Shown here: in pieces, positions 35,323 to 40,663 of the stretch
Numbering within the stretch: position 1 is the stretch's first letter
Layout: each line of letters opens with the position of its first letter
From: Planctomycetaceae bacterium
GTDB lineage: Bacteria > Planctomycetota > Planctomycetia > Planctomycetales > Planctomycetaceae
Assembly (NCBI GenBank): GCA_947476295.1
Contig: CANJQC010000031.1
Coordinates: 1 to 48,861, forward strand
Length of the DNA stretch: 48,861 nt
Reading direction: 5' to 3'
The notes under the pieces: model-generated
Databases searched by the model: none
What the model saw: only the letters and a program-made list of their open reading frames with translations
What the model was told of the DNA's origin: nothing
Made by a program: the position numbers and the translations under genes

Positions 35323-36143
35323 AGATCACGCACCTGAGGGACAGTATCAAAAAAGCAGGTTGGCTGCTCATCAGTCTAAACAAGCTGCCGCCTAGTTTGA
35401 AGAGAGTGATAGCAGCCCGCGTGGCAAAAACTCAGCCCTAAGGATGGCGTTAGTGCTCGTCGCTTCAAGTTTCGATGGCCCCGGTGTTCCCGCTGCATGT
35501 ATTTCCGGATTTCGGAGTCCTCGATCTCCGGTTTGATTTGCGATGGCTCGCCTCGCCATCAAATGGTGCAGTCGAAATAACGACAAACGCCCATTGAGAA
35601 AGCCGCGAGGGTGATCGCGACGTCGGCATGAAACGGATCCGGTTCAAATAGCACATGAGGGCGTGACATGAGTCAGAAAGTGATTCCAGCAACTCACGGC
35701 TTTCGACCAAACGGATGCCGTTTTTAGACGGTCTCCAGAGAGCAATTCAGCCAGCTGATCTTGTGACATCGCAGCTCAATCTTGCCATGCAAGCGGCTGG
35801 TGTTCAGCATTGTGCTGTAACGCATCTTAGGATGCGCCGTATGGAAACTTCACAGACTCGCTCTATTTTCATTCTCGTCGTGATGGACTTGAAGACTCGC
35901 CGCATCCCAATCGCGTGTGTCACGCATCCCCCACAGTGCGTCGCTACTGGGACGCAATCCCACCCGTATGCAGGATGTCATTAGTACTGCGCAACGCGAA
36001 ATCGATCACTGGATTCGGACTTAGAACGGCACACATCAAACAGCGCAGCAACAGCGGCCGCGCCAGATCCGTGACTTGAGTTCGTGCCCTCTCGGCTGCT
36101 CACCGATAGGGCACCCTTGTGGTCCCGCAATCGGGGAGCCTGC
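35323..36143. other. Intergenic region with decayed sequence and hairpins
   Basis: No intact gene is seen. A hairpin near 35537-35566 pairs ATTTGCGATGGC with GCCATCAAAT apart from one bulged base. The part from about 35841 to 35984 contains a possible integrase remnant, listed separately. The rest shows only short frames. Confidence 0.5.
35841..35984 (+). pseudogene. Possible remnant of an rve-type integrase/transposase
   Basis: Over roughly 30 codons the frame reads T-R-S-I-F-I-L-V-V-M-D-L-K-T-R-R-I followed by P-I-A-C-V-T-H-P. This resembles the first catalytic strand (aspartate in M-D) and the T-R-R-I ... T-x-H-P pattern of integrase-core transposases. Neither the rest of the DDE core nor any terminal inverted repeat is visible, and the frame breaks soon after. 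The call rests on one short motif, so it could be chance. Confidence 0.35.
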
Positions 36144-36251
36144 TCACTTGGACTGGGGTTTAGGCTGCTTTCCCTTCGTCTTCTGTTCCTGTTTGTCCGC
36201 GTTCTGCTTCTTACTCTTTTCCTTATCCTTCTTGCCGCCTTTGTCGCCCAT
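36144..36251 (-). CDS. Short lysine-rich protein
   Basis: A 35-aa open frame beginning M-G-D-K-G-G-K-K-D-K and made mostly of Lys, Gln, Asp and Pro. An AAGGA box lies 8 bases upstream of the ATG at 36251. Short proteins with this M-G-D-K-G-G-K-K start recur in many bacteria, in my recollection as unnamed small proteins. It is too basic and disordered for a fold prediction; nucleic-acid binding is only a guess. The frame extends upstream from a TTG at 36341, but those residues do not fit. Confidence 0.6.
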   Translation of the reverse strand: MGDKGGKKDKEKSKKQNADKQEQKTKGKQPKPQSK

Positions 36252-36601
36252 TTCGTAATCCTTTGTTATTGCATTGATCGTTCGTGTGAGTCCGCATCTC
36301 GGATGAAGGATATTGTCTCCAACCAGATCTGCGATGTCCAATCGCAGCCAACCGTTTTCCTGGACATCGCGAGATAGGCCCCAATCTTGAAACCGTGCAG
36401 GTACCTTTGTTCACACTTCAGTGATATTCTTACGAATACGCTCTTCTCCATCCGCGCGATGCGTTATCCTATCGCTACTGAGGCCACACCGGCGTCCTCG
36501 GCGACCGTGTTCAGAACTACGCCACGCCCGTTGATACCCTCTGCCCCACGGAAAACAGATTCCGATCCGTTGGTTGTCGTGACACCACCTGGAACAAGAC
36601 C
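36252..36601. other. Region upstream of the topoisomerase-helicase gene
   Basis: No convincing gene. A 72-codon plus-strand frame (36387-36605) ends across the GTG start of the fusion gene but has no family pattern or clear ribosome site. The area should carry the promoters of the small protein and of the fusion gene. Confidence 0.45.
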
Positions 36602-39600
36602 GTGACCATAGTTGTTGTCGCCGAGAAGCCGTCTGTTGCACGTGATATTGCACTGGTGGTCGGCGCGCGGACACGGGCATCCGGTTGGCTTCACGGCAAC
36701 GGATACGTGGTCACGTGGGCGATTGGGCACCTCGTGGGATTGGCGCAGCCACACGAGATCAATCCCGATTGGAAAGCGTGGCGTGCAGAGTCGCTGCCCA
36801 TGCTGCCCGATCATTGGCCGCTGGCCGTGCTCGAGTCCACAAAAGAACAGTTCCGCATTGTCAAAAAACTCATTCAGGGCCGCGATGTCGAATACATGGT
36901 CTGTGCCACGGATGCGGGGCGCGAGGGTGAGCTGATTTTCCGCTTCATTTACGAGGCCGCGGGGTGCCGCAAGCCGGTTCGCCGGTTGTGGATTTCGTCG
37001 CTTACGCCCAGCGCGATCAAGTCCGGACTGCTGGCGATGAAAGACGGGAGCGCGTACGACTCGCTGGCGGCGGCAGCCCGCGGCCGTGCTCAGGCGGATT
37101 GGCTCGTTGGATTGAATCTGTCGCGTGCGTATACGATCGCGCAGGGCGAGACTCTTTCCGTCGGCAGGGTGCAGACGCCGACGCTGGCGATGCTGGTCGA
37201 ACGCGAAAAGGAGCTCCGCGAGTTCGTCCCTGAGGCGTACGTCGAAGTTGTCGGCACGTTTGGCACCCAGCCCTACGTGGGTACGTGGTTCAAGACCGGC
37301 GAAACTCCCTCAAGCGAATCTAAGCGGCTCCCACCCGACGGACAGAATGCGCGGGCCATCATCGACCGAGTGAAGCTCGCGGGCACGGGGATGATCGAGT
37401 CCATGACGCTGGAGAAACGTCGGATGCCGCCCCCGCTGCTCTACGATCTTACCGAGTTGCAGCGGCACGCCAACCGTCTGTGGGGGTTCAGCGCCAAGCG
37501 GACGCTCGAACTCACGCAGGGGTTGTACGAGACAAGGAAACTTCTCAGCTATCCTCGCACGGACAGTCGGCATTTGTCGTCCGACGTGGCTGCAACGTTG
37601 CCGCAGGTGGTACAGGCGATCCTTGGTGCCTATGAGACGCAGCTTGCCGATGGGACAGGCACGCGGGCGCTGAGCCGGCGGTTTGTGGACGATGCGAATG
37701 TCACTGATCACCACGCGATCATCCCGACGACGATGAACCCGACGCAAGTTTCTCTCACCGACGATGAACGACGGATCTACGACCTAGTCTGCCGTCGGCT
37801 GCTGATGGCATGGCACGAGGAACATATCTGGGCAGTGACCACGGTCATTACAGCTGTGGCGTCACCTGTAACCGCAAGTCCTGCCAGATCCTCTGCGGTC
37901 GCCGCCACCATTCCCATCATCGACCACTTCCATACCGTCGGCACTGCCGTGGTCCAGCTCGGATGGAAAGTGCTCGACATCCCTGCACGCAAGAAAGACG
38001 GCGACGTGGAAGAGCAATCCCTTCTCGCTGGCCTCACTAAAAACGCGACCCAGCCGGTACGCGATGTCGTCATGCAGGAGAAGCAGACGCGCCCCCCCAA
38101 ACGGTTCAACGACGCGAGTTTGCTGACCGCGATGGAGACGGCTGGAAAATCGCTCGACGACAGGGAACTCTCTCGCGCCATGAAGGATTGTGGGCTGGGC
38201 ACACCAGCGACCCGCGCGGCGATCATTGAGACACTGATTACGCGTGAATACATCGTGCGCGACGGCAAGTCGCTGGAAGCCACCGACAAGGGCATCCGGC
38301 TGATTGACGCGGTCCACGCCGACGTCAAGAGCCCGGCGATGACCGGACAATGGGAGGCACGTCTGCACGCAATCCACAGAGGCGAGTCGCAGTTACCGCC
38401 GTTCATGACGGGGATCGAGACGTATGTCCGCGAGGTCGTGAAGCTCGTGCTCGACGGGCCGCCCGGGCCGCCCGGGCCGCAGACCATCGAGCAGACCATC
38501 GAGCAGACCATCGAGCAGACCTTCGAGCAGACCTTCGAGCAGACCTTCAAGCAGACGCTTGCCACAAAAACCGGGCAGCCTGCCAACGCAACTGCCAACG
38601 CTGTTCAGCCGCGATCGCCGCTGTCGCGAGACATTACAGAGCTGCTCACGAGCACCTTTGGCCATGCCGGTTTCCGCCCGCACCAGGAGGCAGTCTGCAA
38701 AGCGGCTCGCGACGGCGAAGATGTACTGCTGGTGATGCCGACCGGGGCGGGCAAGTCGCTCTGTTACCAGCTCCCGGGCCTGGCGCGCGGCGGGACGACG
38801 CTCGTGATCAGCCCGCTCATTGCTTTGATGGAAGATCAGGTTACAAAGCTCCAGGCGTTGGGCCTGCGGGCGGAACGGATCCACTCCGGCCGCTCTCGTC
38901 CGGAGTCGCGTGCCGTGTGCCTGGAATACCAATCTGGCGGGCTCGACTTTCTCTTTATAGCGCCCGAGCGACTGGGCGTGCCGGGCTTTCCCGAGTTTCT
39001 CGCCCGCACTAAGCCCACATTGATCGCCATCGACGAGGCCCACTGCATTTCGCAATGGGGGCACGACTTTCGTCCCGACTATCGTATGCTGGGCCAGCGG
39101 CTCCCCTCGCTCCGTCCCGCACCAGTGATCGCGCTGACCGCGACCGCGACACCTATCGTGCAACGCGACATCATTGCGCAGTTGAATCTCAAATCCGACA
39201 GCCGCTTCATCCACGGCTTCCGCCGGAACAACCTCGCCATCGAAGTCGTCGAGGTTCCGCGGCCCGACCGCATGGACGTGATCCTGAAATTGCTGGAGAA
39301 TTCCGCGCACCGGCCAGCGATCGTTTATGCTCCATCTCGTAAGGACGCGATCCTGCTCGCCGAGCAACTGGCCGAGGTCATGCCTGCCGCTGCCTACCAC
39401 GCCGGTATGGCTGCGGCCGACCGTGACCGTGTCCAGACCCGCTTCCTCCGTGGTGATATCGACGTGATCGTCGCCACTGTCGCCTTCGGCATGGGAATCG
39501 ACAAGGCCGACGTGCGGACCGTCGCGCACCTCGCGCTGCCTCAGACGCTCGAGGGCTACTACCAGGAAATCGGCCGCGCCGGCCGCGACGGCAAACCCTC

Positions 39601-40663
39601 CCGCGCCATCCTGCTGCATTCTTTCATCGACCGCAAAACCAATGAATTCTTTCACGAGAAGAACTATCCGCCCGTCGCCACGCTGAAAGAAATCTTCAAG
39701 CAGCTCACCGCAAAGCCGCAGTCGAAGCACGCCTTGCGGGACCGCACGCAGATGAACGACGACCTGTTTGACCGCGCACTGGAAAAACTGTGGATCCACG
39801 GTGGCGCGCTTGTCGATCCCGACGAGTCTGTCTGCCGAGGCACCAACACGTGGGCTCCGTCCTACGAAACGCAGGTCGCACACCGACTCGTGCAGTCCGA
39901 GCAGATGGCGCGTTTCGCACAATCGCACGGCTGCCGCATGGTGCATCTTATCCAGCACTTCGGCGATGATGATGACCCCGGTACGCCCTGCGGAATTTGT
40001 GACGCATGTGACTCAACTGTGTGTGTCGTGCAAGCCTTTCGCACGCCAACCAGGAGTGAAACCGAAATTATGCAGGCGACGCTCGCCTCGCTTACAAAAC
40101 TTAACAACCAATCCGTTGGTACGCTGCATCGCAATGAGAGCGCTGCGCTGGCACGCCACGACTTTGAGACGATTGTCTCCGCGCTCCTCCGCAACGGTAT
40201 GGTGAGCAGCCGCCCCGATGTCTTTGAAAAAGACGGCAAGTCAATCCCGTTCCATCGACTCACACTGACACGGCTCGGTGAGAAAGCGAGCGCACACACG
40301 CTGGCCGCGCTCCAAGTACCGATGAAGGTTGAAACCCAGAAAAAGGAGCCGCGCCCGCGCTCGAAGCCTAGGGCGCGATCCACGTCGAAAACTCGTGCCA
40401 CGCCCAAGTCGAGTTCGAAGAAGAGCGCAGCGCCGGCCACGCCGCGCATAGGGAGGATCGACGCTGCACTGCGAGCCTGGCGCAAGGCCGAGGCGACAAA
40501 AAAACGCGTCCCCGCGTTCCGCATCATGACCGACAAGGTGCTACTGGGTGTCGCTGCGTCGCGCCCTGAAAGCGAGACTGCCCTGCTCGCGGTCCCTGGC
40601 GTTGGACCGTCGCTGGTTAAGAAGCACGGGGTGATAGTCCTTAAAATTGTGCGCGACGCCTAA
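36602..40663 (+). CDS. Fused DNA topoisomerase III and RecQ helicase
   Basis: A single 1353-aa open frame holding two enzymes. Residues 1 to about 610 form topoisomerase III (TopB): TOPRIM motifs A-E-K-P-S-V-A-R-D and T-D-A-G-R-E-G-E, and the catalytic tyrosine Y317 in L-L-S-Y-P-R-T-D. Residues 619-650 form a linker of G-P-P repeats and six Q-T-I/F-E tetrapeptides. From about 655 a complete RecQ follows: Walker A T-G-A-G-K-S at 714-719, D-E-A-H at 811-814, the helicase C-domain, a zinc-binding region with the C-G-I-C-D-A-C cysteines, a winged-helix part, a Lys/Arg/Ser-rich stretch and a C-terminal HRDC-like domain. RecQ and TopIII normally act as separate partners that unlink DNA. The GTG start gives the exact TopB N-terminus. 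The gene looks GC-richer than its neighbours. Confidence 0.95.
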   Translation: MTIVVVAEKPSVARDIALVVGARTRASGWLHGNGYVVTWAIGHLVGLAQPHEINPDWKAWRAESLPMLPDHWPLAVLESTKEQFRIVKKLIQGRDVEYMVCATDAGREGELIFRFIYEAAGCRKPVRRLWISSLTPSAIKSGLLAMKDGSAYDSLAAAARGRAQADWLVGLNLSRAYTIAQGETLSVGRVQTPTLAMLVEREKELREFVPEAYVEVVGTFGTQPYVGTWFKTGETPSSESKRLPPDGQNARAIIDRVKLAGTGMIESMTLEKRRMPPPLLYDLTELQRHANRLWGFSAKRTLELTQGLYETRKLLSYPRTDSRHLSSDVAATLPQVVQAILGAYETQLADGTGTRALSRRFVDDANVTDHHAIIPTTMNPTQVSLTDDERRIYDLVCRRLLMAWHEEHIWAVTTVITAVASPVTASPARSSAVAATIPIIDHFHTVGTAVVQLGWKVLDIPARKKDGDVEEQSLLAGLTKNATQPVRDVVMQEKQTRPPKRFNDASLLTAMETAGKSLDDRELSRAMKDCGLGTPATRAAIIETLITREYIVRDGKSLEATDKGIRLIDAVHADVKSPAMTGQWEARLHAIHRGESQLPPFMTGIETYVREVVKLVLDGPPGPPGPQTIEQTIEQTIEQTFEQTFEQTFKQTLATKTGQPANATANAVQPRSPLSRDITELLTSTFGHAGFRPHQEAVCKAARDGEDVLLVMPTGAGKSLCYQLPGLARGGTTLVISPLIALMEDQVTKLQALGLRAERIHSGRSRPESRAVCLEYQSGGLDFLFIAPERLGVPGFPEFLARTKPTLIAIDEAHCISQWGHDFRPDYRMLGQRLPSLRPAPVIALTATATPIVQRDIIAQLNLKSDSRFIHGFRRNNLAIEVVEVPRPDRMDVILKLLENSAHRPAIVYAPSRKDAILLAEQLAEVMPAAAYHAGMAAADRDRVQTRFLRGDIDVIVATVAFGMGIDKADVRTVAHLALPQTLEGYYQEIGRAGRDGKPSRAILLHSFIDRKTNEFFHEKNYPPVATLKEIFKQLTAKPQSKHALRDRTQMNDDLFDRALEKLWIHGGALVDPDESVCRGTNTWAPSYETQVAHRLVQSEQMARFAQSHGCRMVHLIQHFGDDDDPGTPCGICDACDSTVCVVQAFRTPTRSETEIMQATLASLTKLNNQSVGTLHRNESAALARHDFETIVSALLRNGMVSSRPDVFEKDGKSIPFHRLTLTRLGEKASAHTLAALQVPMKVETQKKEPRPRSKPRARSTSKTRATPKSSSKKSAAPATPRIGRIDAALRAWRKAEATKKRVPAFRIMTDKVLLGVAASRPESETALLAVPGVGPSLVKKHGVIVLKIVRDA
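38480..38551 (+). repeat. Tandem 12-bp repeat in the linker of the fusion gene
   Basis: Six successive 12-base units: three CAGACCATCGAG, two CAGACCTTCGAG and one CAGACCTTCAAG, followed by a partial unit. They encode Q-T-I-E or Q-T-F-E/K tetrapeptides and are preceded by three GGGCCGCCC-type units (38456-38479). Being in frame and a multiple of three, the number of copies can change without breaking the gene. Confidence 0.95.

Follow-up and report, generated by a model that had tools for sequence, protein, structure and literature searches.

A single gene in a planctomycete genome (Planctomycetaceae bacterium, assembly GCA_947476295.1) encodes a topoisomerase III (TopIII, or TopB in bacteria) and a RecQ helicase as one protein, which is probably a functional single-chain RecQ–TopIII "dissolvasome". 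The gene lies in contig CANJQC010000031.1, of which we analyzed positions 1 to 48,861, the whole stretch that we call the window. The physical union of RecQ and TopIII in one chain is given by the sequence and is known here from the gene alone; the activities of both halves, their coupling and their substrate are what we infer from it. The parts are known families, and the new point is their union. A first, sequence-only reading of this DNA had proposed a built-in RecQ–TopIII pair. That idea is supported by the domain models, the predicted folds, the kept catalytic residues and the selection acting on both halves.

The frame at 36602–40663 on the forward strand is open throughout, with zero internal stops in 1353 amino acids (aa), so the uninterrupted TopB-then-RecQ frame of the sequence-only reading was confirmed. 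Its GTG start aligns with ATG in genus mates. Pfam and NCBIfam place a full TopB at residues 4–620 and a full RecQ at about 680–1353, and all six Pfam domains lie above their curated cut-offs. The curated TopB profiles were passed (TIGR01056, 540.9 against 515.75; PRK07726, 643.1 against 597), as was the RecQ family model TIGR00614 (390 against a cut-off of 219.8). The E. coli-type RecQ equivalog models were failed (TIGR01389, 467.5 against 640.2; PRK11057, 382.4 against 1015). By these scores the RecQ half is a member of the RecQ family outside the E. coli RecQ equivalog. The motifs already named from the letters are present as described: AEKPSVARD with E8/K9, TDAGREGE at 103–110, Tyr317, Walker A at 714–719, DEAH at 811–814 and zinc cysteines 1111, 1130, 1133 and 1136. 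What had been called an HRDC-like end can be sharpened to a true HRDC match above the Pfam cut-off. The features of the gene are as follows.

36602..40663, + strand: topB-recQ fusion gene, 1353 aa, GTG start; a single frame also in relatives
36611..37000, + strand: TOPRIM domain (aa 4–133; E8, D104, E108), Pfam PF01751; residues kept among fusions
37055..38407, + strand: type IA topoisomerase core (Topoisom_bac, aa 152–602), Pfam PF01131, 1.2e-104; AlphaFold2 (AF2) model closest to E. coli TopIII
37550..37552, + strand: active-site tyrosine codon (Tyr317, SYPRTDS); Y in 20/20 aligned fusions
38444..38626, + strand: low-complexity tether joining both enzymes (about aa 615–675), from its length and substitution rates (dN/dS)
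38479..38556, + strand: 12-bp tandem repeat, 6.5 copies, within the tether
38675..39151, + strand: RecQ helicase domain 1 (DEAD, aa 692–850; Walker A K718, DEAH 811–814), Pfam PF00270
39269..39592, + strand: RecQ helicase domain 2 (Helicase_C, aa 890–997; motif VI R992/R995), Pfam PF00271
39665..39844, + strand: extra winged-helix-like insert (about aa 1022–1081) between helicase core and zinc module, from AF2 helices and strands
39869..40009, + strand: RecQ zinc module (RecQ_Zn_bind, aa 1090–1136) with four Cys, Pfam PF16124; aligned to the RecQ 1oyw cysteines
40052..40267, + strand: predicted RQC-type winged helix (about aa 1151–1222), from AF2; several RecQ-core structural matches extend over it
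40340..40435, + strand: basic, predicted disordered linker ahead of HRDC (about aa 1247–1278), predicted local distance difference test (pLDDT) below 50
40466..40651, + strand: HRDC (aa 1289–1350), Pfam PF00570, 5.3e-16

An assembly artefact, a frameshift or chance can be ruled out because independent genomes carry both halves in one frame. One open frame holds both in 24 genomes: four from the window's family, 10 acidobacterial, 9 myxobacterial and 1 bdellovibrional, with the phylum names of loci (L handles) and genome samples (G handles) taken from the record titles of the loci and of the sample centres. Contamination of the bin is also unlikely, with the gene present whole or in part in 5 of 18 genomes of the genus (G000, G001, G005, G012 and G017) and remnants in G004 and G015, whose flanks match those of the G005 copy at 91–93% identity.

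The most complete of the 24, 20 distinct fusions, were aligned. TOPRIM, Tyr317, Walker A, DEAH, motif VI and the four zinc cysteines were invariant in 20/20 where covered. E8 and K9 were kept in 19; in the other, G033, the contig ends there. The ratio of nonsynonymous to synonymous substitution rates (dN/dS), calculated against G012 and G033 respectively, was 0.18 and 0.12 for the topoisomerase core, 0.13 and 0.18 for the RecQ core, and 0.16 and 0.20 for HRDC. Values for the tether (0.66 and 0.39) and the basic linker (aa 1241–1285; 0.71 and 0.60) were higher. Against the acidobacterial-sample copy L150 the cores gave 0.16 and 0.16 at a dS of 1.7–1.9, which is too near saturation to rely on. 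The alignment and the codon comparisons show that both active sites have been retained and constrained.

AlphaFold2 models were built for each half, the topoisomerase from alignment A2 (25 rows) and RecQ from alignment A1 (32 rows), and had a mean pLDDT of 89.9 and 85.9, respectively. In Foldseek, E. coli TopIII filled the first eight rows for the topoisomerase half, with template modelling (TM) scores of 0.77–0.81, and BLM and bacterial RecQ cores ranked first for the RecQ half. VIA-align 2 gave a tie for the RecQ half between Deinococcus RecQ (Z 34.1, root-mean-square deviation 6.4, 470 residues) and human RECQL5 (33.2). Sequence searches of the PDB returned TopIII chains at the top for the first half (11yy, 11fc and 1d6m, the last from E. 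coli) and RecQ 1oyw, which we take to be the E. coli enzyme, on top for the second. The E. coli TopIII 240s, presumably the residue numbers of the decatenation loop, align with a segment of comparable length here; L017 and L019 have a shorter version of this segment, and L023 has it too.

The halves can therefore be set beside their free-standing counterparts. The first shares with bacterial TopIII (E. coli 1D6M and 2O59) the TOPRIM and tyrosine core, scores above the TopB cut-offs and a TM of about 0.8 for its AlphaFold2 model. E. coli TopB stands free, whereas the fusion continues into a tether and a whole RecQ. The second half has in common with bacterial RecQ (1oyw; Deinococcus 4q48) and human BLM the helicase core, the zinc cysteines, the RQC winged helix and HRDC. 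It differs from bacterial RecQ in falling below the equivalog cut-off, in having an insert of about 60 aa and in sitting behind TopIII. The insert looks like a winged helix, as predicted within the model of the whole RecQ half. It is present in 26 A1 rows of the same clade (fusions and RecQ-only kin), absent from rows L064, L065, L072 and L098, and partial in L062 and L139. E. coli-type RecQ rows of A1 do not have it. One myxobacterial fusion copy (G221) seems to be without HRDC.

Between the positions equivalent to 614 and 681, the tether measures 67 residues here and 29–287 aa across fusions, and it is of low complexity in the tethers inspected. The 12-bp repeat within it is in-frame, encodes TIEQ/TFEQ units and is mostly missing from the G012 and G033 tethers; it is possibly a length-variable linker.

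The fusion is recurrent and patchy, found in Acidobacteriota, Myxococcota, Bdellovibrionota and the window's own group. It was present in 10 of the best 80 loci of a contig search (six acidobacterial, three myxobacterial, one bdellovibrional). By record title, Myxococcaceae, a family with genetic models, includes two of the copies (L047, L054). Among 99 relatives, our own genome included, one-frame copies occurred in our own genome, G012 (86%), G033 (another genus, 79%) and G017, whose copy is a piece covering both halves in a match that also contains one TAG. The two parts in G005 lie at the edges of two contigs and would be joined across them, and in G001 only the RecQ part was seen, at the edge of a contig. 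Two phylum samples were each centred on a genome chosen for having the fusion. Around a Bryobacterales metagenome-assembled genome (MAG), 5/99 genomes had the fusion and 8 had a separate TopB-level match, with up to six candidates scored per genome; around a Myxococcaceae MAG, 7/48 had the fusion and 1 had a separate TopB.

We also asked which other topoisomerases and RecQs accompany the fusion. TopB-level denotes more than 380 bits to TIGR01056, a line of our own (11/99 genomes pass the curated cut-off). Scores at this level occurred in 14/99 genomes. In the window's family they occurred in 6/61, as four fusions (G000, G005, G012, G033) and two separate TopB genes (G027, G031). The 18 draft genomes of the genus had no separate TopB-level match (E 1e-60), and G002, G009 and G017 had no TopA-level match at that threshold either. 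Besides the fusion, our genome has one TopA-like gene and two separate RecQ genes, so topB was found only as the fusion and recQ was found separately as well. The sequence-only reading had the fusion hold the two activities at 1:1. This stands in one direction: TopIII never comes without a RecQ, whereas RecQ also exists free of TopIII, since the genome has two separate RecQs and the only other type IA enzyme found is TopA-like.

The two enzymes were also seen as separate genes. In Listeria, topB and recQ adjoin each other (plasmid-collection match H1), which counts in favour of the functional pair, and they lie 2.6 to 4.6 kb apart in three further contigs (L058, L059, L110), two from Bacteroidota and one from Enterocloster. 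Stand-alone genes from the RecQ clade of the fusion (L129–L133, L136, L154–L160 and L183–L186) lie in genomes that gave no TopB match at the thresholds applied, and several of these genes bear an extra C-terminal stretch that by eye resembles a second HRDC.

All trees were "quick" searches without bootstrap and left out duplicate copies of a gene, short fragments and the weaker RecQs. The topoisomerase halves of the fusions fell on one side of a branch from the single TopB rows, 16 against 20 and then 22 (of 24) against 21, with a Shimodaira–Hasegawa-like approximate likelihood ratio (SH-aLRT) support of 99. In the trees of both halves, the planctomycete copies grouped with L150 and L151 of the acidobacterial sample and L191 and L192 of the myxobacterial sample (support 95 for the topoisomerase, 98 for RecQ). 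That copies from different phyla share a supported group in each tree suggests movement of the fused unit between phyla, and the unit seems to travel together. One origin with horizontal spread is the simplest history, given the single clade of 22 topoisomerase halves.

The RecQ halves are less tidy. In the best RecQ trees, nine RecQ-only rows, all from the acidobacterial loci or sample, fall within the fusions. A single RecQ clade of fusions was rejected by the approximately unbiased (AU) test in the first set (p-AU 0.004; 46/53 rows used, those with at least 300 bits) and was not rejected in the enlarged set (p-AU 0.135), in which one identical sequence stood in two groups. The RecQ-only relatives may be fissions of the fusion that lost the topoisomerase half, or the fusion may have arisen repeatedly.

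Members of the RecQ family combine a 3'-5' motor with DNA binding by the zinc and winged-helix modules and junction binding by HRDC. In a single-chain dissolvasome, the RecQ half would unwind or migrate branched DNA, exposing single strands. The tethered TopIII half would then nick one strand via Tyr317, pass the other through and reseal it. Converging junctions, hemicatenanes and late replication links could in this way be undone without crossover. The flexible tether would hold TopIII near the strand exposed by RecQ, and the covalent linkage would do the job that protein contacts and RMI1 do in BLM/Sgs1 complexes. There is precedent for such a pair: RecQ stimulates E. coli TopIII in vitro, and BLM, TopIIIalpha and RMI1 dissolve double Holliday junctions, according to the portions available of three papers (PMC7140829, PMC4109787, PMC8191776). 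The BLM–TopIIIalpha–RMI1–RMI2 and Sgs1–Top3–Rmi1 dissolvasomes contain the same enzyme pair, a comparison of how they work with a fusion known from sequence. They are separate polypeptides in complex with RMI proteins (PMC4109787, in the part available), whereas the fusion is one chain. Its Pfam matches include no RMI-like domain; no genome search for an RMI-type OB-fold partner was made.

Several observations weigh against a dedicated dissolvase. The tether varies ten-fold in length, which argues against a rigid interface. The congeners G004 and G015 retain just short broken remnants, so the fusion is dispensable there. RecQ of the same clade occurs alone in 7/20 genomes (G107–G112, G116; no TopB match at E 1e-30), in 7/99 of the acidobacterial sample (none at E 1e-100) and in 4/48 of the myxobacterial sample (none at E 1e-120), so this RecQ can do without the topoisomerase half. 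One fusion genome (G100) has two more topoisomerase matches, at 37–38%. Where E. coli TopIII has D105, every aligned fusion has Gly106, and single TopB rows of A2 have Gly there too. In E. coli itself, RecQ reportedly neither interacts nor acts with TopIII (PMC7140829, PMC13244152); from the portions available, a review calls the pair not well supported (PMC7140829), and a 2026 study finds that RecG, not RecQ, acts with TopIII (PMC13244152). On complex formation between RecQ and TopIII, the available part of PMC8191776 states the opposite.

In one alternative, the RecQ half would chiefly recruit TopIII, bringing it to forks or junctions by means of the HRDC, the winged helices and the zinc module, and the main job would be to remove replication precatenanes or R-loop-linked strands, not recombination. 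The role of E. coli Topo III is best supported in replication, as far as the available text of two sources goes (PMC7140829, PMC13244152), the tether is long and flexible, and the fusion's RecQ clade has a predicted extra winged helix of DNA-binding type. However, the helicase motor is probably used, because Walker A, DEAH and motif VI are kept in 20/20 aligned fusions and purifying selection acts on the helicase core, and we consider recruitment as the main role unlikely. Less probable again is a passive fusion, two useful enzymes joined by chance into a single transcript and chain and co-transferred, each acting alone. The patchy distribution, the lineage-variable tether and the RecQ-only relatives would fit this, as would the G+C content of the gene (0.618 against 0.548 for the window; the G033 copy has 0.644 within a flank of 0.622). 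Set against it, one topoisomerase clade stays fused across four phyla, and TopB in the genus was found only fused.

In reverse gyrase the helicase part precedes the topoisomerase part. The fusion has the opposite order, TopIII first and then a RecQ with zinc module and HRDC, and it does not belong to that family by the curated model TIGR01054, which scored 95.6 against a cut-off of 471.7 and matched only at its positions 704–1157 of 1172. A machine working like reverse gyrase, in which the helicase drives the topoisomerase to a one-way, ATP-dependent change in supercoiling, is therefore very improbable: reverse gyrase is likewise a natural one-chain fusion of a superfamily 2 (SF2) helicase-related part and a type IA topoisomerase (PMC8185306, in the part available), but its structures match the topoisomerase half far below E. 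coli TopIII, and in the fusion a long low-complexity tether separates the halves.

For the single-chain dissolvasome, a broader proposal can be made tentatively; we think it possible, although doubtful. The fusion could be a second natural class of one-chain, ATP-driven type IA topoisomerase beside reverse gyrase, in which a RecQ motor permanently coupled to TopIII forms a processive, self-contained dissolvase/decatenase. Such an enzyme would have been invented once, kept fused in four phyla and passed on whole, giving TopB-less recipients a complete pathway in one gene. The sequence-only reading had allowed that such fusions might prove common and already characterised. As far as could be seen, the fusion is recurrent but patchy, and the open-licence PMC papers listed, at the level of titles and abstract openings, report no natural TopIII–RecQ chain; nor do the available portions of three topoisomerase reviews (PMC7140829, PMC8185306, PMC8191776) name one.

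The finding bears on the disputed question of a functional RecQ–TopIII pair in bacteria. On comparative grounds, a fusion that is kept across phyla with both active sites under selection argues strongly for a real pair in bacteria other than E. coli, and it suggests that selection in other lineages has held RecQ and TopIII together. Being a one-chain protein of fixed stoichiometry, it can also serve in tests of dissolution.

The surroundings of the gene vary among relatives. A mobile element with fixed ends was suspected because the window's flanking frames were unmatched in the stretches from G001, G004, G005, G012, G015, G017 and G033, several of them short (tblastn, E 1e-12). This candidate was set aside as less likely, and the gene may still be mobile: the G005, G004 and G015 sites are one locus, with 36139–36602 common upstream (terminal repeats were not searched). 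No plasmid record covered at least 80% of the query at one place among the best 5000 of a larger number of matches, and no phage record did so among 47 records. The window had no Rfam match at gathering scores.

Upstream of the fusion and divergent from it, a lysine-rich small open reading frame of 35 codons (MGDKGGKKDKEKSKKQ...) lies at 36144–36251 on the reverse strand, with a hairpin-like stretch after it; G005, G004 and G015 share the DNA of this small frame. An ECF sigma match of the Rhodopirellula/Verrucomicrobium type was also seen and points to Planctomycetota as the window's phylum. A further conserved stretch of about 70–140 bases (window 35532–35673, L169:4283–4424, L173:4120–4189) lies upstream of the fusion here and downstream of it in G012 and G001.

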